A stretch of DNA of 55,818 nucleotides. Source: Hyphomicrobium sp. Its GTDB lineage: Bacteria; Pseudomonadota; Alphaproteobacteria; Rhizobiales; Hyphomicrobiaceae. Position numbers and translations under genes: made by a program. The stretch is taken from contig JALHQM010000012.1 in NCBI GenBank assembly GCA_022841965.1, forward strand, positions 2,323-58,140, read 5' to 3'. Below the pieces are notes generated by a model that saw only the letters and a program-made list of their open reading frames with translations, searched no databases and was not told the DNA's origin. Within the stretch, counting starts at the first letter, position 1. Every line of letters starts with the position of its first letter. This document shows, one piece after another, positions 31,826 to 44,080 of the stretch.

Positions 31826-32413
31826 CTATCGTTGAGGTCGGACGACCGCGTCGATCTCGATGGCGATTTCGTCGCCGACCATGTCGGCGTAGGAGTTCAT
31901 GTTGAAGGCACTGCGAGAGATTGTGGTTTTGGCCACGAATTTTTTGCTGCCGGCGCTGAATTTTAGGGCTGGGTCTTCGTGCGGGGTGAGCGTGACGGCG
32001 AGCGTGACGGGCTTTGTCACTCCATTGACTGTGATGTCGCCCGTGATCTCGGCGGTGTTCTCAGCCGTCGTTTTGACCGACCGGCTGCGAAATGTGAGTT
32101 CAGGGGCGGCCTTGACGTTGAAAAAATTCGCGCCCTTCAATTCGTCATCGACAATGGGTTGGCCCGTTTCAACGCTTGCTGTTGCGACCTTCGCGTAGAC
32201 TTTGCTGCTTTCCGGTGTGCGTTCGTCATATTGGAGGGAGCCTTCGACGCGGCTGAAGCGGCCGCGTTGCGTCAATAGCCCCATCATGTAGGAGAAGCGA
32301 ACTTCGGTTTTTCTGGGGTTGAAGATATAGCTCTCGGCTTTGGCCATTGGTGCAGACACGATGGCCGGGATTGCGGCGGCAAGAATGACGGTCATGAGAT
32401 GAGCATTTCGCAT
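31826..32413 (-). CDS. YceI family periplasmic protein (1)
   Basis: Protein of 195 residues with a Sec signal peptide (MTVILAAAIPAIVSAPMAKA) and a YceI lipocalin-like barrel: YIFNPRKTEVRFSYMMG, VDDELKGANFFNVKAAPELTF, ITGDITVNGVTKPVTLAV and TISRSAFNMN. YceI proteins bind polyisoprenoids such as quinone-like lipids in the periplasm. ATG 32413 is supported by GAGGGA upstream and by the signal peptide; the longer frame from 32488 is rejected. It is divergent from the cytochrome b561 gene. Confidence 0.88.
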   Translation of the reverse strand: MRNAHLMTVILAAAIPAIVSAPMAKAESYIFNPRKTEVRFSYMMGLLTQRGRFSRVEGSLQYDERTPESSKVYAKVATASVETGQPIVDDELKGANFFNVKAAPELTFRSRSVKTTAENTAEITGDITVNGVTKPVTLAVTLTPHEDPALKFSAGSKKFVAKTTISRSAFNMNSYADMVGDEIAIEIDAVVRPQR

Positions 32414-32595
32414 ATTGTGTCCCTCGAACAGTTGGTGTTCGTGGCGCATAGTGCGCGATGTTTGCCCCGTGCCGTTTTGTACGATCATGGTTTGGCAGAA
32501 ATGCAGCGGTGGCCGTCAATGTCTGGCCGGAATTTTCCGTCAGTTGAGCTGAGATGCCAAATTCTTGCGAGATTGCGGAGTGAGACACGCGTTCT

Positions 32596-33129
32596 ATGGT
32601 GATAAGAGATACACGTGAGCGGTATGGGGCAGTTTCGCGTGTGCTCCATTGGAGCATGGCGCTGGCTGTTTTTGCGCTCTTTGGGCTTGGGTGGTGGATG
32701 GTCGGGCTCGACTACTACAGTCCGTATTACAGAAGTGCACCGGATCTGCATCGGAGCGTGGGATTGCTGGTTCTCTTCGTGTTGGGTTTGCGGATCGCGT
32801 GGCGCTTAGTCAACGTGAAGCCGGACGGCGATGATCTGACGCCCACCGAGCGCCGTGCGTCGCGGATCGTTCATGTGGCGTTTTATCCGCTGCTGGTTAT
32901 TCTCATGGTGAGCGGCTATTTCATCTCCACGGCGGACGGTCGTGCGATCGACGTTTTCGGATGGTTCAGTGTGCCGGCGTTGGTTGTCGCGCCGCGACTT
33001 GAGGATGCCGCGGGGTTGGTGCACGAATGGACCGCCTATGCTGTGATGGCGCTGGCGGGTCTTCATTCGGCTGCTGCCTTGAAGCATCGGTTCTGGGATA
33101 GCGGTGCGACTCACCGCCGGATGTGGTGA
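32596..33129 (+). CDS. cytochrome b561 family protein
   Basis: Inner-membrane di-heme b protein of 177 residues with four helices. Candidate heme ligands are H18 in SRVLHWSMALAVF, H52 in DLHRSVGLLVLF, and histidines in VHEWTAYAVMALAGLHSAAALKH near the end. Bacterial b561 proteins pass electrons between quinol and small carriers or superoxide. Its stop is about 40 bases before a second YceI gene; the b561-YceI pairing is common in proteobacteria. Confidence 0.88.
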   Translation: MVIRDTRERYGAVSRVLHWSMALAVFALFGLGWWMVGLDYYSPYYRSAPDLHRSVGLLVLFVLGLRIAWRLVNVKPDGDDLTPTERRASRIVHVAFYPLLVILMVSGYFISTADGRAIDVFGWFSVPALVVAPRLEDAAGLVHEWTAYAVMALAGLHSAAALKHRFWDSGATHRRMW

Positions 33130-33170
33130 TGGCGTGTTACTCGATCTACTTTGCGAAGGGATATACTCAC

Positions 33171-33746
33171 ATGATCGCTCGAATGGTCAGCCTCGGATTG
33201 GCTGCTCTTGTTGCCGCTTCTCCACCGGTGAGTGCGGCTGACTACGATATCGATACCAAGGGAGCGCACGCCTCGATCAATTTTAGAATTCCGCACCTTG
33301 GCTTCAGTTGGCTCGTCGGACGCTTCGATACATTCTCAGGAACTTTCAGCTACGACGAAAAGAACCCCTCCGCCGCTAAGGTTGCCGTCGAAATCGATGC
33401 GGCAAGTATCAATTCAAATCACGCCGAGCGGGACAAGCACCTGCGCGCCGTGGACTTTCTTGATGTCGCGCAATTTCCAAAGGCGACCTTCGTCAGCACA
33501 TCGGTGACGCCGGATGGGGCGGGAAAAGCAAAGATCGTCGGCGATTTTACGCTGAGAGGTGTGACCAAGCCGATCACCATTGATGCGGTTTTCGTGGGTG
33601 GAGGCGACGATCCGTGGGGTGGATACCGGCAGGGCTTCGCCGGCAAGACCAAACTCGTTCTGGCCGATTTCGGCATCCTCAAAGAGCTTGGTCCGGCGTC
33701 GAAGGACGTTGAACTCGACCTCCACGTCGAGGGTATCCGCAAGTAG
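33171..33746 (+). CDS. YceI family periplasmic protein (2)
   Basis: Protein of 191 residues with signal peptide MIARMVSLGLAALVAASPPVSA. YceI barrel motifs: YDIDTKGAHASINFRIPHLGFSW, LRAVDFLDVAQFPKATF and VGDFTLRGVTKPITIDA. It is closer to classical YceI (including the HAERDKHL segment) than the other copy. ATG 33171 has GAAGGG ten bases upstream; ATG 33129, which overlaps the b561 stop, is a less likely start because it would place 14 polar residues before the signal peptide. Confidence 0.87.
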   Translation: MIARMVSLGLAALVAASPPVSAADYDIDTKGAHASINFRIPHLGFSWLVGRFDTFSGTFSYDEKNPSAAKVAVEIDAASINSNHAERDKHLRAVDFLDVAQFPKATFVSTSVTPDGAGKAKIVGDFTLRGVTKPITIDAVFVGGGDDPWGGYRQGFAGKTKLVLADFGILKELGPASKDVELDLHVEGIRK

Positions 33747-33754
33747 GGTGCGGC

Positions 33755-34366
33755 TCATTTTGGTCCGATGGGCGACTGGACATTTTCCGCCTGGGCTGAT
33801 TTCACGGCAGCGAGAGCTGCCGTGATTTCAGTATCAGATGGGGCTAGGCGCAGAGCTGTTTCGTAGGCACGTGCGGCGTCATCGGTTTGGCCGGTGTTGA
33901 GATAGGACCAGCCGAGCATCTTCCAGCCTTTGACGTCATCGGGCTGCTGCTTGAGCCGCGCCACAAGTTTGCCGATCATCTGATCGACGCCGGGAAGGGC
34001 TTCGCCTGTTGCTGCCTTGCTGGATGCTTTCTCGTGCGGTGCGTCGATCGATGAGGCGTAGGACTGGAGCGCGGCAAGATCTTCGTCGGCATCGAAGGCG
34101 GTATGAGCGGGGGGGGTCGACGCGGCGGCGCTCTGCGCTGTTGCTGTGCCGGTGGCCACCTCGGGGATGGCTGCGAACGCTACAGCGGCGATTGCAGAGA
34201 CCGCCGCGAGCACAATGCCGGAGGTGCGCGCGTCTGTCGTCACCCACCGTCGCGTCAGTGTCAGGAGTGGCCATTGTCCATTGAAACGTAGCCGCAAGAG
34301 AACAAGAATGGCCAGAAGCGAGCTGGCTGCTGTTCCTATGGCTAGAAGCGCAAAGCTCTGTGTCAT
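33755..34366 (-). CDS. CcmI/NrfG-like TPR membrane protein
   Basis: Protein of 203 residues with two N-terminal transmembrane helices (LLAIGTAASSLLAILVLLRL and SGIVLAAVSAIAAVAFAAI), the layout of CcmI. A Pro/Ala-rich linker and a periplasmic TPR module follow (LVARLKQQPDDVKGWKMLGWSYLNTGQTDDAARAYETALRLAPSD). CcmI/NrfG proteins present apocytochrome c to the heme lyase, recognising C-terminal ends. Being last in the multiheme operon, it may be a dedicated assembly factor for the decaheme protein; that is inferred. GGAGG eight bases before ATG 34366 supports the start. Confidence 0.75.
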   Translation of the reverse strand: MTQSFALLAIGTAASSLLAILVLLRLRFNGQWPLLTLTRRWVTTDARTSGIVLAAVSAIAAVAFAAIPEVATGTATAQSAAASTPPAHTAFDADEDLAALQSYASSIDAPHEKASSKAATGEALPGVDQMIGKLVARLKQQPDDVKGWKMLGWSYLNTGQTDDAARAYETALRLAPSDTEITAALAAVKSAQAENVQSPIGPK

Positions 34367-34405
34367 TTTCAAACCTCCGAAACGCGACGCTGACATCGAC
34401 AACGT

Positions 34406-36850
34406 CTATGGCGTGGGAATCTTCGTTTTCATGATGGGCGTCGATACCCCGTTCACGTGATATGCGTGGCAGAGGGTGCAGTCTTGACGGGCGGCGTTGG
34501 TGGCGTGGCAGGTCTGGCAGACCTCTTTCTTGACCGCACCGAAGTTCGAAGCGAAGATTTTTGGGTCGCCCTGCTCGTAGGTTTTGATGGGCGGAGTGTT
34601 TTTCTGCATTTCGTGGCACCCGCTACATCCCCGGTCTCCCATCAGCCCGAAGTGCGGCTCATGGGCGAAGCGGGTGAATTGTCCGGCTTTGCTCTTGGCA
34701 GAGAGTGGCGTGAAATTGACGGCGCGGCCCTGCCCGGCGATGTCATCCACGCTATGACATTTCGTGCAGGAGCCTTGCGCATCCTTTGCAATGAGCTGCT
34801 CGAACACCGCAGCTTCGGCGCCGGTCGCGCCCTTCGCTGCGACCGGACTGGTGAGCAGCAGCCATGAGGCGAGGAACTTATCCTTGTGACCCGCCGGCCG
34901 GTAGAAAATCGCGTGATCCTGCCGGTACCACCCTCCTGTGTCGGCCCAGGACTCGGCATCGAACGAATTGTCGACGGCGTTTTCGGTCTGTGCGGTGGTC
35001 TGATCTGGATTGCTGGCCGTCGTTGGGGCTGAGCTTGATGGAGGTGCGGCGGTTGCCGTCGCACTTGGTGGCGTGGCAGCGGGTTTTTCATCACTTGATG
35101 CTGGGTTTTCGGTCGCGGCAGGTGCTGCTGTTTTTTGCGGCGGGGCCCCTTTTTCCCGGGCTTTTATTTCGCGCAACTCGGCTTCAGTTGGCGCGAGCAA
35201 TTCATCGGTTTGATTGGCTGGGTCGGAAGGCGATGCGGCGGTCGTAGGGCTCGTACCCGTGTCGCCGGACGGTGCGGCGTCCGATCCTGTTGCGTTGCTC
35301 GCGTTAGGCGCGGGCTCTTCTGGTGGCGCTGACGATTTAATTTTGGCGGACGGGGGTGGCGTTGCGCCTATCTCCTGATCGAGCTGTTCGATGGACCGCG
35401 GCGTTCCACTGGGCAACGGCCGGCGCGGCATCGCTGTGTCGCCGTCGCTAAAATTATTGCCGCCAGCCTGCGCAAATTGGAGGGGCCGCAGATGAGCCAC
35501 CGCAGGTTGGGATCGCATGAAGGCGAGGACGGCGGATTTGTGGTTGACTGGGTGCGTGTTCCAGCCGCTGCGTTGACGTTCGCCGGTGTCTGGCCGTGCG
35601 GCGATTTCCTTCGCGAGGTTGGGCAGCCACTGCTGCTGCGCACTTGCGATGACGTCGCGTGGGAGGTTTGCCGTCAGGTCGGCGATCGTACCGGGGCTCA
35701 GTTTTGTGCTGCCCCCGATGGTCAGATTGGCGAGGATATCTGATGCCTTGCCGGACATCATGGCGTGGAAGAGTTTTTTGATTTCCCAGACGAGGCTCGT
35801 CACGGTTTTTATTTGTTCGTCATTTGCGGCAGATAGATCCTGTAGCGTTACGCCTTGCAGGCTTTGGATCAATGCCGCGCCGCTTGAGCTGCGCCCGATC
35901 ATGACCTTCATGAAAGGCGTCAACGCGGCCTCGGAGTCTTCGGGCCATTCGCCGATCTGCGCCCCCTTCTTGCGGAGGGATTGTACGTCGATACCCGGCA
36001 GAGACAGAAAGGCAATGCCTTTTGGCCCGCTTGCCCGCTCTTTGCCGGTGATTTGGTCCAGGTGACAGGTGCTGCAGGTTTTCTCAAATGGAGCCACTGC
36101 CATGACGGTACGGCTGGCGCTGCTGTCGTGGCACGTCGAACAGGTTGCCGGAAGTGTCTTGCCGGGTTCCTTCTTTGCCAACTCCGGGTAGTGCTTTCCG
36201 AAGTGGCCTGCGTGGTCGAAGATGATGCGCGTTCGTCTCTTGAATGGATAGGATTCGAATACAGGATGCGCGCCGTCGAAGCTGTCAAACTTCACTGCGT
36301 GGCACGACCTGCACTGCTCATTGGAAATCTCCTTGAGATTGAAGTTGGCACCTTGGTGCTCCTGGTGGCATGTTGCGCACTGAAGGCCTGCCGCAACCAT
36401 ATCGTGCGTCGGGAAAGCAGCTTCCTGCGCCTGCGCGGACAGTGGTTGATACGTTTCAGCGGCGATCTTCACCAGCCGGGTAGTGCTTTGTTGCAGGATG
36501 GCAGGTGACGCGCCGTGGGCGTTGAACGCGGTGTCCGGCATCACATGACAGGTGAGGCAGGCTTTGCTGTCGTCATGCGGGTTGCTTGCGGCGAGACCGG
36601 CAACCCAACTGAACTTTCCGGTTCCGGCTCTCGCATGGCAACTGCTGCAGGATTCAATTGAACTGTGTGCGCTGGTCAAGGGACCGGGCATCAGAAATTG
36701 CGTTCCGGAAGATACGAGAAATATGGCCGTGAGGCAGCCGATGGTGAGAAGCGCCAGTTGCCGCGCAATGTGGTCGCGAGATGGTCCTGACGGCGGTTGC
36801 TTGACGGCTTTCGTCCGAGGGAGCGACGCCACATTCTTGAGACCGCGCAT
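34406..36850 (-). CDS. decaheme c-type cytochrome, membrane-anchored
   Basis: Protein of 814 residues with ten CxxCH heme-binding motifs. Six are in the first third (CSSCH 68, CLTCH 98, CATCH 158, CRSCH 180, CSTCH 237, CSTCH 259) and four near the C-terminus (CTKCH 695, CSGCH 742, CQTCH 778, CTLCH 791). They are separated by a long region without hemes, including a Pro/Ala/Ser/Thr-rich stretch at about 500-650. An N-terminal helix (ALLTIGCLTAIFLVSSG, about 33-50) lacks a clear cleavage site and probably anchors it in the inner membrane facing the periplasm. Two heme domains on a flexible tether suggest electron shuttling across the periplasm. I do not recognise a named family. ATG 36850 overlaps the stop of the upstream b-type gene (TAATG). 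Confidence 0.88.
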   Translation of the reverse strand: MRGLKNVASLPRTKAVKQPPSGPSRDHIARQLALLTIGCLTAIFLVSSGTQFLMPGPLTSAHSSIESCSSCHARAGTGKFSWVAGLAASNPHDDSKACLTCHVMPDTAFNAHGASPAILQQSTTRLVKIAAETYQPLSAQAQEAAFPTHDMVAAGLQCATCHQEHQGANFNLKEISNEQCRSCHAVKFDSFDGAHPVFESYPFKRRTRIIFDHAGHFGKHYPELAKKEPGKTLPATCSTCHDSSASRTVMAVAPFEKTCSTCHLDQITGKERASGPKGIAFLSLPGIDVQSLRKKGAQIGEWPEDSEAALTPFMKVMIGRSSSGAALIQSLQGVTLQDLSAANDEQIKTVTSLVWEIKKLFHAMMSGKASDILANLTIGGSTKLSPGTIADLTANLPRDVIASAQQQWLPNLAKEIAARPDTGERQRSGWNTHPVNHKSAVLAFMRSQPAVAHLRPLQFAQAGGNNFSDGDTAMPRRPLPSGTPRSIEQLDQEIGATPPPSAKIKSSAPPEEPAPNASNATGSDAAPSGDTGTSPTTAASPSDPANQTDELLAPTEAELREIKAREKGAPPQKTAAPAATENPASSDEKPAATPPSATATAAPPSSSAPTTASNPDQTTAQTENAVDNSFDAESWADTGGWYRQDHAIFYRPAGHKDKFLASWLLLTSPVAAKGATGAEAAVFEQLIAKDAQGSCTKCHSVDDIAGQGRAVNFTPLSAKSKAGQFTRFAHEPHFGLMGDRGCSGCHEMQKNTPPIKTYEQGDPKIFASNFGAVKKEVCQTCHATNAARQDCTLCHAYHVNGVSTPIMKTKIPTP

Positions 36851-37755
36851 TACCACGCTCCGGATGCGTAGGCATACACGACAACGATGTGCAGCACGGA
36901 CAGCACGATCAGCGCATAGGTGACCGGCACATGCACGTACAGCCATCCCTTGGTGAGGAGGAGGTAGACATGTGCAAAGTCGAGCCGGTCTTTCTCGATC
37001 ACCAGATCCTTGATGGCGGCTAGTTTTTCCTGGCGGGGTGTATCGACAAAGCGCGATAGCGTATCGATTTCATTGAGTAGACGTTGTGCCGGGCTGCGCG
37101 AGCCAACGAGATGTGCTGTGAAATGACGGGGTGCGGGGAGAAAATCGCGGAGGTGATTGGCGTAAAGATCGAGGATCCAGACGTCATATGGCAGTGCCGG
37201 TAGGGGAAGGTCGGTGGATGGTGATGGGGTCTTCGTCACGGCAGCATGAATGGTCTGAGCGATTTCCTCACGGCGGATTGGGATGCGATCAAAGTTGAAG
37301 CCGGCGGACATTCCGTGTCTCGCCTTCAGTGACCAGGATAGGTACGTGCCGAACGCGCCGCTGAGTGCGATGAAGATGAAGCCTGTCCAAAGCGCCCATT
37401 CCAGTGCGGTATCTGGCAATGTAAAATTCGCGTGCGACAGGAATGCTGCGATCAGTACATAACCCAGAGAAATGTGAAACGTGCGCCAGCGCACGACCGC
37501 TTTCGGGGACAGTTGCGCGGTCTTGAGCGCGATATGGAAGTAGACCTGGAAGCTCATTCCAATAGCGAGCAGCCAACCGTCGAGATATCGCGCATCTCGA
37601 AGTCCTGATCCATACAGCCATACGCAAGCGAAGAGCAGGCCGGATATTGCGGCGATTGCCGCCGCCCGAGCGAGTGGCTTTAGGCGAAAGCCTGAGATCC
37701 TCAATCCGCTTGGGCCCGCCGCCCCTTCGATCGTGCGCTGAACCGCCAATCGCAC
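36850..37755 (-). CDS. membrane protein with diheme cytochrome b pattern
   Basis: Protein of 301 residues. Four N-terminal hydrophobic segments (about 30-50, 62-80, 93-111 and 118-140) are followed by a soluble stretch of about 110 residues and a last helix (about 276-296). Two helices carry histidine pairs exactly 13 residues apart: H94-x13-H108 and H275-x13-H289. This H-x13-H pattern binds two stacked b hemes in cytochrome b-type quinol oxidoreductases. It could therefore exchange electrons between the quinone pool and the c-type cytochromes encoded on either side. The start is GTG 37755 or TTG 37749; the latter has better spacing from AGAGG. It is coupled to the decaheme gene by TAATG. Confidence 0.8.
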   Translation of the reverse strand: MRLAVQRTIEGAAGPSGLRISGFRLKPLARAAAIAAISGLLFACVWLYGSGLRDARYLDGWLLAIGMSFQVYFHIALKTAQLSPKAVVRWRTFHISLGYVLIAAFLSHANFTLPDTALEWALWTGFIFIALSGAFGTYLSWSLKARHGMSAGFNFDRIPIRREEIAQTIHAAVTKTPSPSTDLPLPALPYDVWILDLYANHLRDFLPAPRHFTAHLVGSRSPAQRLLNEIDTLSRFVDTPRQEKLAAIKDLVIEKDRLDFAHVYLLLTKGWLYVHVPVTYALIVLSVLHIVVVYAYASGAW

Positions 37756-37773
37756 ACCTCTTCACATCGTGGA

Positions 37774-38817
37774 TCATTTGACCGCGGCGGCCGTCCGGGC
37801 TGACCCCTTGAAGGCTGCCGGCGGCGGTATCAGGGCATCGAGCCCAGACATCGTGGTGCCGTCGTAGGACGCACTGATTTTCTCCAACAACGCCTGAACG
37901 CTGTCGGCTGCCGTCGTAAGAGAACGGTTGTTGTTGAGTTTCAGTCCGGCTGTGTGGGCCAATTCGACGATTTTTTCGATTTCCGGCACATTGGGTGCGG
38001 CTTTTCCCGCTGCGGCCAGCTGCTTTCTAGCCCGGTCAACGCGCTGGGCCATCAGGAAGGCGTAGGGTTTGCGCTTGGTGGCTTTGGCAACGGCGCGCAG
38101 CGCTGTTTCCAATTCCACGCCCAGTCCGACGAGGTAGAGCATGCGCTTGCGCGCTGCGCTGGCCGGCAGGTTCTCCTTGCCTTTGGAATGCCAGGTGTTA
38201 TGCCGAACTTCCCCTTGCGACCAGGAGACGAGTTCGAATGCGCTGCCGGCTTTGTGTCCACCGGTATTCACGAGGTCTTCGTGGGGGACGACGTGGCAGC
38301 TGTAGCAGTTTTTTGCCAACCGGTAGAGGGATACGGGGCGGATCATGCCCTTCGAATCCGCCAGTTTCCATCGCGCGGCTGCCTCGGCCTTGCTTTCCGT
38401 CGCGGCGGTCTTTCCGCTGTAGCCGCTGTGAACCTTGATCCAGTCCTGACTGGCGCTGTGGCAGGACTCGCACGAGATGCCGGCGATCGGTTCCGGCTTA
38501 TTCTCCTTCTGTTGGACCGTGAAGTGGCAGCCGAGGCAGAGGCTTTCCACCTTAATGCGCCGGACGCCCATGCGGTCGGCGATTGCTTTGGCGCCTTCGT
38601 TGCGTGGCATATCGCGGAAGGTCTTGAAGTGATGCGTGCTCTTCCAGGCCTCAACCTCCTGTTTGTGGCATTCGGCGCAGGCGTTGGGTCCCGACACTTT
38701 GGCATGGTCGGATGCGCTTTCGGCAAAAGCAGCGACGCCGAAAAACGTCAGGACACCCAGAAGGTACGAGGCAAACGCAGGTTTTGACGCGCTATGGCGC
38801 AGCGTGGTCAGCCGCAT
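37774..38817 (-). CDS. tetraheme cytochrome c (cytochrome c554-like)
   Basis: Periplasmic protein of 347 residues with signal peptide YLLGVLTFFGVAAFAES. Four CxxCH motifs occur at residues 47, 94, 116 and 171, with the order and spacing of cytochrome c554-like proteins (GPNACAECH...AWKSTHH near the first heme; ISCESCH...W near the third). Extra histidines (H62, H63, H130, H179) could be distal ligands. The C-terminal 150 residues have no heme and are helical and Lys/Ala-rich, an addition relative to nitrifier c554. It lies ten bases after the reductase gene and 18 bases before the b-type gene, so it is part of one operon. Confidence 0.86.
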   Translation of the reverse strand: MRLTTLRHSASKPAFASYLLGVLTFFGVAAFAESASDHAKVSGPNACAECHKQEVEAWKSTHHFKTFRDMPRNEGAKAIADRMGVRRIKVESLCLGCHFTVQQKENKPEPIAGISCESCHSASQDWIKVHSGYSGKTAATESKAEAAARWKLADSKGMIRPVSLYRLAKNCYSCHVVPHEDLVNTGGHKAGSAFELVSWSQGEVRHNTWHSKGKENLPASAARKRMLYLVGLGVELETALRAVAKATKRKPYAFLMAQRVDRARKQLAAAGKAAPNVPEIEKIVELAHTAGLKLNNNRSLTTAADSVQALLEKISASYDGTTMSGLDALIPPPAAFKGSARTAAAVK

Positions 38818-38827
38818 GATGTGTGCT

Positions 38828-39931
38828 TCAAATTCCTAGACGTTGCTTTTCTCTCGTATCGGCGCCCTGCTTTGCCTTCATTGGCGGTTCTTGCCGCTGG
38901 CGGACGGACTGACGTTTCGGCCGGGCGGCCGGCAACGTTAGCCATCCTATTGCGCGGGTCAGTAAGTTGTCGGGTTCGGTGTCGTCGGTTGCGGGCAAAA
39001 ACGGGTCCGCGTAGCAGACTGCGCCCGCGCTCGCGGCGATCGACTTAACCTCGGCTACCATTGCTTCTGCACCGCAGACGAACAGCACATCGGTTGGGAG
39101 CATCACTGGGAGATAGTCGGTCGGGCGGCCGGGCAGAACCGGAGGCGGCAGGTTTTGCGAGCGGCTGCAGACGGGGACAAGCAAGACATTGGGAAAGCGG
39201 GCCAACTGCGCCAGGGCGGGACCCATATAGAGCGACTGTAGCGTGCGGCCGCCGGCGATGATCATGATGCTGCGGTTCGGGTTTTCCCGCAGGGCTGCAA
39301 CAGCAATGGACCAAATTGGCGCAAAGCCGGTGTTGGTGGCGACGAGAATCAGCCGTCCCTCGATATCTGGCCTGAAGTATGCGGAGCCGTAGGGGCCGCT
39401 CAGCGTCACGCGATGTCCAAGGGTGATGCGTTTGCCGAGGGATGAACTGACGCGTCCGGTCTCCATCCGGCGGATGTGAAACCAGACAGTCCTCGCACTC
39501 TGTTGGCCACTCAGCGCGTGCGTGACGCTATACGGCCGGCTTGGATAGCCTTCGAAACGCAATTTCATATATTGTCCGGCCAGATATGGCAGAGGGCGCT
39601 CGGTCGAGATCCCGACTTCCATCACCTCAGGCGACAGTGCTCTGAGCGAACTGAGTACCCCTTCGACTGTGCGGATACTCGGCGATTGGCCACTCTCGAC
39701 GACAACGTCACCAGAGATTCGGCACTGACAGGCGTGGACAATGCCCGGTTGTGCGCCTTCTCCGCCGAGCACTTTGCCGGAGACAAGCTGTACGCAGCAT
39801 GTGCCGCAGTGGCCGGCGCGGCAGTCGTGGGGAAGATCGACCCCATTTTTGAGGGCTGCGTCGAGGAGCCGTTCTCCATTCTGAGCGGTGAACGTCGTGC
39901 CGTTCACAGTGATCGTGTGTCTGCCTGGCAT
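38828..39931 (-). CDS. [2Fe-2S] ferredoxin / FAD / NAD(P) reductase
   Basis: Three-domain electron-transfer reductase of 367 residues. The N-terminal plant-type ferredoxin has ligands C37, C42, C45 and C68 (CRAGHCGTC and HACQC). The FAD domain (about 95-195) has RPYSVTH, and the NAD(P) domain (about 200-300) has GPYGSAYF and CGAEAMV. A basic C-terminal tail follows. Such reductases serve oxygenases (MmoC-, phenol hydroxylase-like) or other redox partners. No oxygenase is encoded nearby; instead it leads an operon of cytochromes. It has no signal peptide, so it would act in the cytoplasm. ATG 39931 begins MPGRHTITVNG, the usual ferredoxin strand. Confidence 0.9.
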   Translation of the reverse strand: MPGRHTITVNGTTFTAQNGERLLDAALKNGVDLPHDCRAGHCGTCCVQLVSGKVLGGEGAQPGIVHACQCRISGDVVVESGQSPSIRTVEGVLSSLRALSPEVMEVGISTERPLPYLAGQYMKLRFEGYPSRPYSVTHALSGQQSARTVWFHIRRMETGRVSSSLGKRITLGHRVTLSGPYGSAYFRPDIEGRLILVATNTGFAPIWSIAVAALRENPNRSIMIIAGGRTLQSLYMGPALAQLARFPNVLLVPVCSRSQNLPPPVLPGRPTDYLPVMLPTDVLFVCGAEAMVAEVKSIAASAGAVCYADPFLPATDDTEPDNLLTRAIGWLTLPAARPKRQSVRQRQEPPMKAKQGADTREKQRLGI

Positions 39932-40540
39932 TGTGTGCTCCTAGAGCTTTTCGATTTGTCCCGTTCGTCGTCAACGCTCAACGCCGTTACGCCTCGTTAG
40001 AAGCTCTCCAGTCTGGTGATGCTGCGGATAGATGCGGGCCATTTCGCACCCTGCTTCGGTTGGTTAATCCGACTTTGGCATTTCAATTTCTTTTGCCTCC
40101 ATTGCGAATTTATTATTCTCTCTATCTGATCTGACGATGGCGCTTTCATGGCTTCTTGGCACCGGTCTGTCACGAGCATATCTTCGGCAAGCTCGCTCAC
40201 TTGAAATGCTTTTACCCAGAAAAAGTACCATTGCTAACGTTTCAGAGGGAGAGCGGCGTTTCGCCAAAATACGCACGTTTTGTTGGCGTCTAGGCCTCTT
40301 TCTCCGAGCGGAAGTTTAGCTTCATTTTCATAGGAAGGGGCTGCCGTTTGAATTGCGGTGGCAAAATCAATTTTATTCCATCACTCCCCTGTATTTTTTG
40401 AATTAACAACTGCCATATCGCTGCCTTTTTTGGTCCATAGCCACACTATGGCTTGATGTTCTGCGGCGGCAGTGGTCAGGCGCCATTTCGCGGGGGAAAT
40501 GCGCAATCCGAAACTATCCGGACGCATGGGGGATTAGGAT
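39932..40540. other. 609-base divergent intergenic region of the redox cluster
   Basis: Noncoding region between the reductase operon (minus) and the pentaheme cytochrome gene (plus). It is visibly richer in A and T than its flanks, mainly at 40080-40420. Short open frames (for example 40137-40319) have no recognisable product. It should hold both promoters and regulator sites; I cannot place a convincing sigma-70 or sigma-54 promoter. Confidence 0.6.
40435..40451. repeat. inverted repeat upstream of the pentaheme gene
   Basis: CCATAG-CCACA-CTATGG, perfect 6-bp arms, about 90 bases before the start codon. Possible operator; chance cannot be ruled out. Confidence 0.35.
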
Positions 40541-42373
40541 ATGGCGATTTCGCGAGACGCATGGACGTGGATGCTCAGCGGCGCTGCTGCCTGCTGCATT
40601 GTGTTGGCCTGTGTGGCGCCTGTTTCAGCGCAGCAGAGCACAACGGCGGACGGTGAGCCGGTCGCTAAAAGTTACGAAGATAGTGCAGGGCCGGAGAACG
40701 CTGCGTCTGAGACCTTGCCGGCGGGACATGGCGGGGCGGCGCAGGACCTGTCGCTTTATCCAACGGCTGCTCAGTGCGGAGAGTGCCACAAGCAAATCTA
40801 TGAAGAGTGGTCGGCATCGCAGCATGCCTACGCGTCTATCTCGCCGATGTTTCACAAATTCGAGCAGAAGTTCCAGGAGTTGACCAAGGGAACGGTCGGC
40901 ACCTTCTGCGTCCGCTGTCATCAGCAGGTTGGCACCCAGCTCGGCGAAGATCGTGCAGCGCCGCTTTGGAAGCGCTCCCAAATTTCGCGCGAAGGCGTGA
41001 CGTGCATCACCTGCCATCGCGTGAAAGAACAGTACAATAAGGTCAATGGTGAACGCCGCGTGGAACCGGGCACGATCAACCAGCCCGTCTTTGGCAGTGG
41101 CGAACAGAGCGTGATCGATGACGTGATCAAGAACAAGGAGACTTACACCGTCGCTACGAGCGAGAAGGATCGCGGCAATCAGATTCACGCTGGGATGATC
41201 ACCAACGATCAGATTACCAAGTCAGAGTTCTGCGTCAGTTGCCATCAGGTGGCCGTCAACTTGGGCATCAAGCTTGAAGTTGTCTGGGACCAGTACCGCG
41301 ACAGCCCTGCTCGCAAGGCCGGCGTATCCTGCCAGGATTGCCACATGGGCAAGGTGCCGGGTAAGCCCGAAGGGTATGACACCGCGCCGACGGCGATCGT
41401 GGGCGGCAAGTCGATCAATCCGGGGCGCCGCCACGCCAACCATAGTTTCATTGGTCCTGGCTACTCGATCGCGCACCCCGGAATCTTCCCGCACAGCAAG
41501 AAGGGCATGGCGATCAGCATCGAGGACTGGCTCTTGTTCGACTGGCGCGCGGGATGGGGAACGATTGATTTCGAAGACAAGGTTGCGGCCGGCAAGATCA
41601 AGGCGAAATTTCCCAAGCGTTGGGCCGATGCCCTGGATCGTGAAGAAGCTCGTCTCATCATCGATGAGAATCTGAAGAAGCTCGACGAGCGCGACAAGTT
41701 ACGGCACGAGGTCTTAGAAAACGGGACCCACGTTGACGGTCCATTCATTACTAAAACGCCGAAGGTTGGCACCGATCTCGCCTTTACCTATCGCATCAAA
41801 AACACGAACTCGGGTCATAACCTGCCATCGGGGTCTCTGGGCGCGCAGCCACAGTTGTGGGTGAACGTGGCACTCGTCGATCCCGACGGCCAGAACGTCT
41901 GGGAGTCAGGTTACGTCGATAGCCACGGTGATATGGCCAACTTGCACAGCCTTGACGTTGCCGCCGGAAAAATCGCCACCGATCAGCAGCTCATACATTT
42001 CCAGACGATGTTCCTCACGACAAACGTGAAGGGCACGGAGCGGGAGATGTATCTGCCGGTGAACTTCGACATCGATCCTCTGCCGCATCTGCGGCCACCG
42101 GGTGTGCCAACGACGGTACTCAACCATCCGCCACTGGTGCGCATGGAGGCGCGCTCGCTAACGCCACTCGGTGAGAAGGTGGCCAAGTACAAAGTCCCGG
42201 GGAACCTCATCACGAAACCGGGCAAGTATCAGCTTGCGTTCCGCATGAGAAGCCGCGCCCAACCGATCTACTTCATGCGCTTCGTCACCGCGACGAAGGA
42301 AATGGAGCAAAGTATGAATGAGCGGATCATGAATTTCCACGCCTTCGCCGTCGATGTTGACGTGAAGGACTGA
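40541..42373 (+). CDS. pentaheme c-type cytochrome
   Basis: Exported protein of 610 residues with a signal sequence ending APVSA (residue 30); an overlapping VLAC could be a weak lipobox. Five CxxCH motifs lie in the N-terminal half at residues 79, 123, 155, 231 and 264 (CGECH, CVRCH, CITCH, CVSCH, CQDCH). The start resembles cytochrome c554/hydroxylamine oxidoreductase-type multiheme proteins (QCGECHKQIYEEWSASQHA). The C-terminal 300 residues have no heme and look beta-rich, with TFRIKN-type TYRIKNTNSGHNLPSG and LWVNVALVDPDG, perhaps a partner- or substrate-binding domain. It is encoded 72 bases before an outer-membrane barrel protein. AGGAT precedes ATG closely. I do not recognise a characterised homologue. 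Confidence 0.87.
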   Translation: MAISRDAWTWMLSGAAACCIVLACVAPVSAQQSTTADGEPVAKSYEDSAGPENAASETLPAGHGGAAQDLSLYPTAAQCGECHKQIYEEWSASQHAYASISPMFHKFEQKFQELTKGTVGTFCVRCHQQVGTQLGEDRAAPLWKRSQISREGVTCITCHRVKEQYNKVNGERRVEPGTINQPVFGSGEQSVIDDVIKNKETYTVATSEKDRGNQIHAGMITNDQITKSEFCVSCHQVAVNLGIKLEVVWDQYRDSPARKAGVSCQDCHMGKVPGKPEGYDTAPTAIVGGKSINPGRRHANHSFIGPGYSIAHPGIFPHSKKGMAISIEDWLLFDWRAGWGTIDFEDKVAAGKIKAKFPKRWADALDREEARLIIDENLKKLDERDKLRHEVLENGTHVDGPFITKTPKVGTDLAFTYRIKNTNSGHNLPSGSLGAQPQLWVNVALVDPDGQNVWESGYVDSHGDMANLHSLDVAAGKIATDQQLIHFQTMFLTTNVKGTEREMYLPVNFDIDPLPHLRPPGVPTTVLNHPPLVRMEARSLTPLGEKVAKYKVPGNLITKPGKYQLAFRMRSRAQPIYFMRFVTATKEMEQSMNERIMNFHAFAVDVDVKD

Positions 42374-42445
42374 CAGCCAGAAGCCCGATCATTGTAGCGG
42401 ATTTTTCGTATCTGCCGGGTTCAAGCCGCGACGTGGAGCATTCAA

Positions 42446-44080
42446 ATGATCTGCCAGAGACATGCGAGCCTTCATTTTTCCGTTGGGATTGCTGCCCTGA
42501 TTGCCGGCGTTCTGGCGGGTGGCTCGGCCTTTGCAGCGGACACGCCTGACGATAAGGCGCAGGCCGAGAACGTGAGCGAAGCCAGTAAAGCTGGCGAGGC
42601 AACGGAAGCGCAGATTGCTAAAGCCGAAGTGGAAGAAGCGGAAGTGGAAAATGACCCCGCGTCGTCCGCTTCAAAGGTCGTGAAGACGTCCAAGACGTTG
42701 GCGACTTCGAAGCGAAAGGCTGGCAAGGAAGATCTCTTCCGTGCCGATCCCGCCTACGAGAGGCAGTATGAGCATCAAGAGCAGATCGACATCTATGGTG
42801 GCAAGTTTGCCGTTGATCCGCCGCGCCCACCAATCGAGCTCGGGCGCCAGCAGTACACGTCCGGTATCTATGAACCGAGCGGTACTCTGCTGGGTGAAAA
42901 GAACCCACTTCTCCCTGGACTTGCCGTGTACGGCGATTGGCGCACGGCTGTCGCCTTCAATCAGAACAACGGCAAGGAGATCGGGCAAATCGCGACGCGC
43001 CTCAATCTCGACGTCGACTTTAAGATTACCGGCACGGAACGCATCCACGCCTTCTTCACTCCCATTACGAAGGACAACCAGTTCACGCGCTATGAGTTTG
43101 GTGGTGGGGACGCGGACCGACAAGAGAACTTCGAGTTCGATGCGGAACCGCAAACGCTCTTCTTTGAAGGTGACCTCGGTTCCCTTTATACTGGCTTCTC
43201 GGGGAATGAAGCGAGCTTCGATCTGCCGTTCACTGTCGGCTTGTTTCCATTGTTCCTGCAGAATGGCATCTGGGCGAACGACGCTATACTCGGCGGCGCC
43301 TTCAGCCTGCCGGCGAAGAACTCCGCCGCTCTGGGGCTTTCCAACTTCGACATCACCTTCTTTGCCGCCTTTGACGATGTCGACAATCCTGGCATCCTTG
43401 GCCTCAACGGTGTCAACAACCACCTTGCCAACCTTTACGGCGTGACTGCATTCATTGATGCCTTAGACGGTTACATCGAAACGGGTTACGGCATGATCGA
43501 CGGCCAGGGCTCCCAGGAGGGCACCACGCATTTCCTCACTGCGGCGTACACCCGACGTTACTTGAATACCCTTTCGAATTCGACCCGTGTCTTCGCAAAC
43601 TTCGGCGATGACCCGGACGGCGATAGCGACGGTTTCGCCATCATCTCAGAGAACAGCCTCATCACCCATTTGCCGAGCACTTTGCTCCCGTATGGCAATT
43701 TCTTCGTTGGCTTCGGCAATCCGCAGCCACTTGTCGACGGGTTCAACGCCGGTATTCTGAAAAACGTTGGTATCAATTTCGAAACCGATGCTTTGACGGG
43801 CTATCCCAAACTTGATGACACTGGTTCCAACGCTTTAGGCGGTGCCATCGGGCTTCAGTATTTGTTCAATCTCGATCAGCAGATCGTCTTCGAGTTGGCC
43901 ATGGTGCAGCCGTTCGAGAACGATGGCATCGGCGCCCGGGATGCACAGTACGCACTCGGTATGCGCTACCAAATTCCGCTCGACAATGCGTGGCTCTTCC
44001 GGGCCGATGCGACGTACCAAATCCTCCAAGGTTCTGAGGATAACTTCGGCATCCGATCCGAAGTGCGCCGGAAGTTCTGA
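42446..44080 (+). CDS. outer-membrane beta-barrel protein (porin-like)
   Basis: Protein of 544 residues. A signal peptide ends GSAFA near residue 30. A charged Ala/Glu/Lys-rich segment (about 32-95, possibly coiled coil) follows. The rest alternates short beta-strands with Gly/Asp/Asn-rich turns (AVYGDWRTAVAFNQNN, NLDVDFKITGTERIHAFFTP) and ends in EVRRKF, with the C-terminal aromatic typical of outer-membrane barrels. It carries no heme motif. Next to a pentaheme cytochrome, it could house or dock a cytochrome in the outer membrane, as MtrB/PioB do; homology to those is not evident. GGAG seven bases before ATG supports the start. It converges on actP with a 13-base gap. Confidence 0.8.
   Translation: MICQRHASLHFSVGIAALIAGVLAGGSAFAADTPDDKAQAENVSEASKAGEATEAQIAKAEVEEAEVENDPASSASKVVKTSKTLATSKRKAGKEDLFRADPAYERQYEHQEQIDIYGGKFAVDPPRPPIELGRQQYTSGIYEPSGTLLGEKNPLLPGLAVYGDWRTAVAFNQNNGKEIGQIATRLNLDVDFKITGTERIHAFFTPITKDNQFTRYEFGGGDADRQENFEFDAEPQTLFFEGDLGSLYTGFSGNEASFDLPFTVGLFPLFLQNGIWANDAILGGAFSLPAKNSAALGLSNFDITFFAAFDDVDNPGILGLNGVNNHLANLYGVTAFIDALDGYIETGYGMIDGQGSQEGTTHFLTAAYTRRYLNTLSNSTRVFANFGDDPDGDSDGFAIISENSLITHLPSTLLPYGNFFVGFGNPQPLVDGFNAGILKNVGINFETDALTGYPKLDDTGSNALGGAIGLQYLFNLDQQIVFELAMVQPFENDGIGARDAQYALGMRYQIPLDNAWLFRADATYQILQGSEDNFGIRSEVRRKF

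Follow-up and report, generated by a model that had tools for sequence, protein, structure and literature searches.

A cytochrome and porin island of Hyphomicrobium assigned to PCC4, and its possible role as an NAD(P)H-driven periplasmic reductase

Between which partners do electrons travel when a single island encodes three multiheme c cytochromes, a membrane protein with a diheme-b pattern, a flavoprotein reductase and an outer-membrane barrel? This question is raised by a locus of Hyphomicrobium sp. (assembly GCA_022841965.1, contig JALHQM010000012.1, positions 2,323 to 58,140 of the forward strand), a stretch of 55,818 nucleotides that we call the window and whose own numbering is used below. 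The initial annotation had placed seven genes at 33755-44080 and regarded them as an unrecognised gene set that could wire the quinone pool to the outer membrane. We find that the island almost certainly belongs to subgroup I of PCC4, and we tentatively favour a reading of PCC4 as an NAD(P)H-driven periplasmic reductase that is fed by its own porin, with an outward flow of electrons.

Identity and layout of the island

Open reading frames and a motif scan confirmed the seven genes, their arrangement as a tight five-gene operon next to a divergent gene pair, and the 19 CxxCH sites. The minus-strand operon encodes, in this order, a [2Fe-2S]-FAD-NAD(P) reductase (38828..39931), a tetraheme c cytochrome (37774..38817), a diheme-b inner-membrane protein (36850..37755), a decaheme c cytochrome (34406..36850) and a tetratricopeptide repeat (TPR) protein (33755..34402). 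The first three genes are spaced by 10 and 18 bases, the diheme-b and decaheme genes overlap by one base, and a 3-base gap precedes the TPR gene. Across a divergent intergenic region of 609 bases (39932..40540), which lies between the two transcription units, a pentaheme c cytochrome (40541..42373) and the barrel (42446..44080) are encoded on the plus strand. Ten CxxCH motifs belong to the decaheme, four to the tetraheme and five to the pentaheme protein; in a six-frame scan these 19 sites in the 10.3 kb island compare with 2 in the remaining 45.5 kb of the window.

In 2017, PCC4 was described as a set of a porin, 4-, 5- and 10-heme cytochromes, an inner-membrane protein (IMP) and other redox genes, the IMP having five helices, an SGxxG motif and two WX3HX13H motifs; subgroup I was reported from Hyphomicrobium only, with differing gene directions, and does not have the Fe-S gene found in subgroup II (He et al. 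2017, PMC5566968). The window carries the porin and all three cytochromes. Its diheme-b protein has W-x3-H-x13-H at residues 90 and 271 and SGxxG at residue 132; five hydrophobic segments are seen at a relaxed threshold only, and two at a strict one. The gene directions differ, no pfam13247 gene is present and the host is a Hyphomicrobium. Since the window agrees with each of these points, the gene set is not new, and its description as unrecognised has to be abandoned. The island belongs to a known but orphan kind: the homologues have been described under the name PCC4, and in the open-access literature we found neither a functional test of it nor a characterisation of these homologues. Among further papers, PMC13264449 does no more than cite PCC4, and PMC13322032 and PMC11475568 deal with other systems.

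The individual proteins can be assigned as follows. The reductase (367 aa), encoded by the first gene of the operon, shows Fer2, FAD_binding_6 and NAD_binding_1 domains above the Pfam cut-off, with Fer2 first in a BenC-like order. It has no N-terminal hydrophobic segment, and one borderline segment (194-212) lies inside the reductase fold; presumably, the protein is cytoplasmic. The tetraheme protein (347 aa) is a member of the c554 family (Cytochrome_C554, 65.1 bits) and is presumably exported, as judged from a hydrophobic N-terminal segment at residues 14-32. The diheme-b protein (301 aa) corresponds to the IMP of PCC4. For the decaheme cytochrome (814 aa), the most likely start is the ATG at 36850, one base of which also belongs to the TAA that ends the diheme-b gene, rather than 36946. 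This protein has six hemes, a long Pro/Ala/Ser-rich stretch and four further hemes, matches Cytochrome_C7 and other Pfam families, and is anchored in the membrane by one hydrophobic segment (residues 60-78, counted in the longer open reading frame). The TPR protein (215 aa, two hydrophobic segments) resembles the cytochrome c assembly proteins CcmH/CycH, with 41.7 bits against a cut-off of 42 for TPR_CcmH_CycH. In relatives its gene is found at the decaheme end of some loci and at the barrel end of others, and elsewhere none was seen; it is an accessory part that varies in presence and place.

Conservation across genomes

In a species-genome collection, a pentaheme scan confirmed 307 relatives; the 80 best loci among them (designated by L-numbers) were analysed after codon-based gene calling. 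The taxonomy of these relatives was taken from the record titles of metagenome-assembled genomes (MAGs), and some bins, for example those titled Bordetella and Asaia, may be misassigned. Wherever at least 2.2 kb of downstream sequence was available, the barrel gene adjoins the pentaheme gene (63 of 63 loci); in L076 it lies upstream. Thirty-nine of the 80 loci have full flanks, i.e. 9 kb on both sides. According to BLAST, these contain the barrel in 39, the tetraheme in 35, the decaheme in 32 and a reductase of type I or II (see below) in 27 cases. For the diheme-b gene the BLAST count of 32/39 was too low, as a profile found it in 34, all except L047, L053, L059, L080 and L081. In the 23 closest full-flank loci (pentaheme identity at least 73%), barrel, decaheme, diheme-b and tetraheme genes are always present and the reductase gene is present in 22, and a gene for a protein with cyclic-nucleotide-binding (cNMP) and 4Fe-4S domains was absent from all 23 by BLAST. 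Twelve genomes, five from the exceptional loci just listed and seven others, have a pentaheme locus lacking the diheme-b gene; nine of them carry such a gene elsewhere, and 11 of the 12 loci have the barrel, the remaining one (L063) ending too soon.

A survey of 103 genomes of the window's own family gave the same picture at the genome level. The pentaheme was found in 42 (including the distant-type G006 and G479), the diheme-b protein in 45 and the barrel in 41, counting strong diheme-b matches only and leaving out the weak ones of G501, G521 and G024. Pentaheme and diheme-b genes occur together in 41 genomes, pentaheme and barrel genes in 40 and all three in 40, while 57 have none. The initial annotation would have been refuted had the genes not occurred together in other genomes; they do so, with the diheme-b gene in 41 and the barrel in 40 of the 42 pentaheme genomes. 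The exceptions are G527 (69% complete), which has the pentaheme alone; G483, which lacks the barrel; G477, with diheme-b and barrel but no pentaheme; and G478, G484 and G032, which have the diheme-b gene alone. Because the genomes share ancestry, Fisher values for this co-occurrence overstate the evidence. Of 398 genomes drawn from the phylum, only three matched (the window's genome, one of the same genus and one of the distant type). The distribution of PCC4 is patchy; carriers of a pentaheme locus include Hyphomicrobium facile DSM 1565, H. zavarzinii ATCC 27496 and Solimonas terrae KIS83-12.

In a tree of 85 pentaheme proteins (the window, the 80 loci and four distant ones), which was computed by a quick method with one support value, the window's nearest neighbour is Hyphomicrobium sp. 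12-62-95, with 93% identity in the 557 columns that were kept. Its clade comprises 37 rows, 35 with the subgroup I layout and two on short pieces, and is nested inside subgroup II-type diversity. Loci titled Rhodomicrobium and Filomicrobium are also included in this clade.

Three kinds of electron input

The relatives fall into three architectures. Type I consists of the Fer2-FAD-NAD reductase, tetraheme, diheme-b and decaheme genes with a divergent pentaheme-barrel pair. Type II has the order tetraheme, cNMP-binding/4Fe-4S protein, diheme-b, decaheme, pentaheme, barrel and a FAD-NAD-Fer2 reductase with a hydrophobic N-terminus, the last being present in all 11 type II loci with at least 1.5 kb after the barrel. 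In the third type, found in Solimonas terrae and several MAGs, a Pyr_redox-cNMP-4Fe4S fusion is followed by diheme-b, decaheme, tetraheme, pentaheme and barrel. The flavoprotein fused to cNMP and 4Fe-4S domains was seen in L076, L074 and L065, and the decaheme of this type carries an N-terminal FHA-like domain, whose FHA score is just below the cut-off in L076 and just above it in L071. The module was located at L076:3187-8213, L071:14214-15914 and L074:3525-8429; its cNMP and FHA-like domains suggest an electron input under the control of a signal. In the diheme-b protein, the residues W90, H94, H108, H275 and H289 do not vary among 24 sequences that represent the three architectures.

Several loci add to this diversity. 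On L067:3-5946, from a Nitrospirota MAG, the cNMP, 4Fe-4S and diheme-b parts form one protein of 828 aa, followed by a decaheme, an FHA protein and a Pyr_redox flavoprotein truncated where the locus ends. A joint function of the fused parts is suggested by this arrangement. Two loci (L039:14534-17194 and L041:14435-17124) share two conserved extra genes downstream of the reductase gene, the first of which has an FHA domain by Pfam and is cyclase-like by eye only. A distant pentaheme branch (L082-L085) has pentahemes of 38-39% identity and a very divergent barrel (25-29%), and in L082 and L083, the stretches that are long enough, the same partner modules stand in other orders. The words 'ferredoxin', 'cyclic nucleotide' and 'FHA' are absent from the main text of He et al. 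(PMC5566968). The third input module and the distant branch may be differences from PCC4 as these authors describe it.

Since three unlike NAD(P)-flavoproteins surround one family of diheme-b proteins, the cytoplasmic partner is probably NAD(P)(H) rather than quinone. The wiring to the quinone pool that the initial annotation had envisaged finds no support here. A quinone link is, however, central to an inward conduit, in which extracellular Fe(II) or Mn(II) would be oxidised at a porin-cytochrome complex and the electrons would reach the quinone pool via the diheme-b protein. This is the model of He et al., who compare the diheme-b protein with cytochromes b that react with quinones, and the habitats they give, namely a drinking-water filter, a pyrite-oxidising enrichment and those of Zetaproteobacteria, are in keeping with it (PMC5566968). 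Yet no quinone-linked partner was recognised among the recurring genes, where it is the NAD(P)-flavoproteins that recur, and the barrel has the size of a porin (see below). Moreover, the RuBisCO large subunit was not found in the window's own genome, which is 88.8% complete, with a model that matched 5 of 14 controls; this is weak evidence against lithoautotrophy. We consider the inward conduit unlikely.

The barrel and the pentaheme cytochrome

For the barrel protein (544 aa), Pfam gave no match and NCBIfam none that exceeded the cut-off. Its AlphaFold model (pLDDT 76.3, with 99 unreliable residues at the N-terminus) best matches the porins OpdL, MOMP, OccK, OprD and AlgE at Z values of about 24-27. 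Barrels of these types have 18 strands, and MtrB has 26. The model accordingly resembles an ordinary porin fold rather than a conduit of MtrB size, and the location of the barrel at the outer membrane, which had been assumed before, gains support from the predicted fold. Among the 50 listed structure matches MtrB is absent, which is not exclusive of MtrB; the MtrB/PioB model TIGR03509 is not among the NCBIfam matches of the barrel up to E 0.1, and a search of the own genome with the MtrB/PioB model gave no match, nor did it give any in the controls, so that it carries no weight. The decaheme reached 22.7 bits with the MtrA/DmsE model TIGR03508 (cut-off 192.2), and in a sequence search of the PDB nothing was found for the decaheme up to E 1 or for the barrel profile up to E 5. 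Given its porin size, it appears doubtful that a cytochrome is threaded through the lumen of the barrel as in MtrAB.

These results also bear on a second conduit, in which electrons from NAD(P)H or quinol, travelling by way of the barrel or alongside it, would reach solid Fe(III) or Mn(IV), other cells or humics. Carriers that span the distance from the cytoplasm to the outer membrane are present, Geobacter with extHIJKL as its only cluster supports metal-oxide reduction in part (PMC6148476), and the archaeal nanowire cytochrome AvECN has been reported to be c552-related (PMC11976967). A conduit function of the island is conceivable. On the other hand, no cytochrome of the set shows a sign of surface exposure, the barrel and the decaheme fall short of the MtrB/PioB and MtrA/DmsE models, and the barrel is porin-sized. 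Outward extracellular transfer therefore seems doubtful to us, if a little less so than the inward route.

The pentaheme cytochrome (610 aa), which has an N-terminal hydrophobic segment, a Pfam match to Cytochrome_C554 and an immunoglobulin (Ig)-like C-terminal domain, is 54-91% identical to 50 relatives. It is the most conserved part: the mean column identity amounts to 62% for the pentaheme (51 rows), 43% for the barrel (46 rows) and 37% for the diheme-b protein (24 rows), in alignments that hold different row sets. Such conservation would fit a protein in direct contact with the substrate. In the heme part, H95, H216, H301 and H312 are invariant histidines outside the motifs. The AlphaFold model (pLDDT 75.6) was aligned by VIA-align with the pentaheme c552 of T. 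tepidum (5ze8) at Z 20.0, with an rmsd of 3.4 over 349 residues and 18% identity, the next-best row having Z 9.9 and others matching the Ig-like part at residues 389-610. Foldseek alone gave Ig-like and unrelated folds among its best 50 rows, c552 not being among them; the pentaheme profile finds 5ze8 by sequence (E 1.4e-9). With five CxxCH hemes, the c552 fold in the model and the Ig-like C-terminal domain, the protein agrees with the PHC/c552 type. Pentahemes of cable bacteria have been grouped with ExtKL and GSU2801 as structural homologues of c552 and counted, by modelling, among open-heme cytochromes (PMC11976967).

Proposed electron path

According to the reading that we favour, NAD(P)H would reduce the flavin and the [2Fe-2S] cluster of the cytoplasmic reductase, and the electron would cross the inner membrane via the two b hemes of the diheme-b protein. 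The decaheme and tetraheme cytochromes would carry it over the periplasm to the pentaheme. Positioned at the periplasmic opening of the porin or close to it, the pentaheme might pass the electron on to a substrate that enters via that porin, the best candidates being small soluble compounds or oxyanions. The gene set with its conservation and co-occurrence, the heme-ligand and domain signatures and the predicted porin and c552-type folds were observed; the outward direction, the docking of the pentaheme to the barrel, the order of the carriers and the class of substrate are what we infer. NOX and ferric reductases pass electrons outward from NAD(P)H. It is with these enzymes that the HX13H pattern of the diheme-b protein has been compared (He et al., PMC5566968). 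We favour the outward direction because of this analogy and of redox potential. The precedent of ExtI in selenite and tellurite reduction would, by analogy, support the porin-fed reductase.

A more specific version is conceivable as well, although we hold it with less confidence: PCC4 could be a porin-fed pentaheme enzyme that is driven via a NOX-like diheme b and is not an outer-membrane wire, its input being switchable by signalling in other lineages. It would then be a system of respiration or protection whose substrate is not known and which occurs in several phyla. The possibility of a current switched by signalling arises because the input of those lineages carries cyclic-nucleotide-binding and FHA domains.

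Several points weigh against the porin-fed reductase. A flavoprotein is able to run in either direction, and BLAST detected none of the NAD(P)-flavoproteins in the L062 locus. The high conservation of the pentaheme may equally stem from protein-protein contacts, and with the ExtKL model NF040886 this protein scores 36.2 bits, far below the cut-off of 250. Furthermore, in 3 of the 12 genomes with a stand-alone pentaheme locus (L051, L063 and L081) a diheme-b gene was not found. On balance the reductase leads, and the conduits are close behind.

Neighbouring genes and significance

Next to the TPR gene, at 31826..33746, the window contains possible accessory neighbours, a YceI gene (-), a cytochrome b561 gene (+) and a second YceI gene (+), as assigned by Pfam YceI and Ni_hydr_CYTB. 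Of 34 subgroup I loci, many of them with short flanks, 13 have a YceI-type gene in the vicinity of the island. Either end can be its site: L002 and L003 have it on the decaheme side, other loci on the barrel side. Clustering of the subgroup I neighbours gave, besides the known parts, YceI and two families in 4-5 loci each. Acetate-permease-type and DUF485 neighbours were rejected as members of the unit, as they recur in the closest relative L002 only, and so were cobalamin-type ABC neighbours, for which high identity was seen only in L002; apart from one btuCD-like pair in L013, the remaining matches (25-42%) are ABC transporters of a generic kind. Two separate lineages outside subgroup I have molybdenum-hydroxylase genes near pentaheme-barrel pairs (L047:4714-8365, L059:4946-8453, L065:14667-18406 and L066), with FAD_binding_5, Fer2_2 and MoCoBD domains in L065 and FAD_binding_5 in L047.

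The frequency of YceI, accompanied by cytochrome b561 in L002, L003, L005, L007 and the window, together with the NAD(P)H input would fit a periplasmic redox protection, in which electrons remove peroxide, nitrogen oxides or toxic metals without respiration. Against this it can be said that the recurring gene set contains no known detoxification enzyme, and that the uptake of peroxide needs no dedicated porin. We regard such a role as the most improbable of the alternatives considered here.

He et al. proposed PCC4 as a system by which iron oxidisers might carry out extracellular electron transfer (2017, PMC5566968). Should its chain instead run from NAD(P)H to a porin-fed pentaheme enzyme, PCC4 would be a misleading marker of metal oxidation and would represent an envelope reductase without known substrate that occurs across several phyla.

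Comparison with known systems

With PCC4 as described by He et al., the island shares the porin, the 4-, 5- and 10-heme cytochromes, the diheme-b IMP together with its motifs, additional genes for redox proteins, the occurrence in Hyphomicrobium and the divergent layout of subgroup I. These authors propose a flow from a donor to quinone and a porin-cytochrome complex (PMC5566968), whereas coupling to NAD(P) and an ordinary porin are favoured here. The ext cluster of Geobacter (extHIJKLMNOPQS) likewise encodes a porin, ExtI, beside a pentaheme, ExtKL, as well as a cytochrome b and cytochromes that hold 12, 10 and 4 hemes (PMC5877670). It has Rhodanese and Rieske proteins, of which the island has none, and its gene list shows no NAD(P) reductase, of which the island has one. 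In an extI mutant, the reduction of selenite and tellurite was lowered, while that of Fe(III) citrate was not significantly changed (PMC5877670). The c552 of T. tepidum and the PHC family share with the pentaheme of the island five hemes and the overall fold, and the PHC family also the Ig-like C-terminal domain, but the identity to c552 is low. MtrCAB, PioAB and MtoAB, finally, have in common with the island a multiheme cytochrome beside an outer-membrane barrel; they differ in that the barrel of the island is predicted to be of porin size and that barrel and decaheme fail the models of MtrB/PioB and MtrA/DmsE, respectively.

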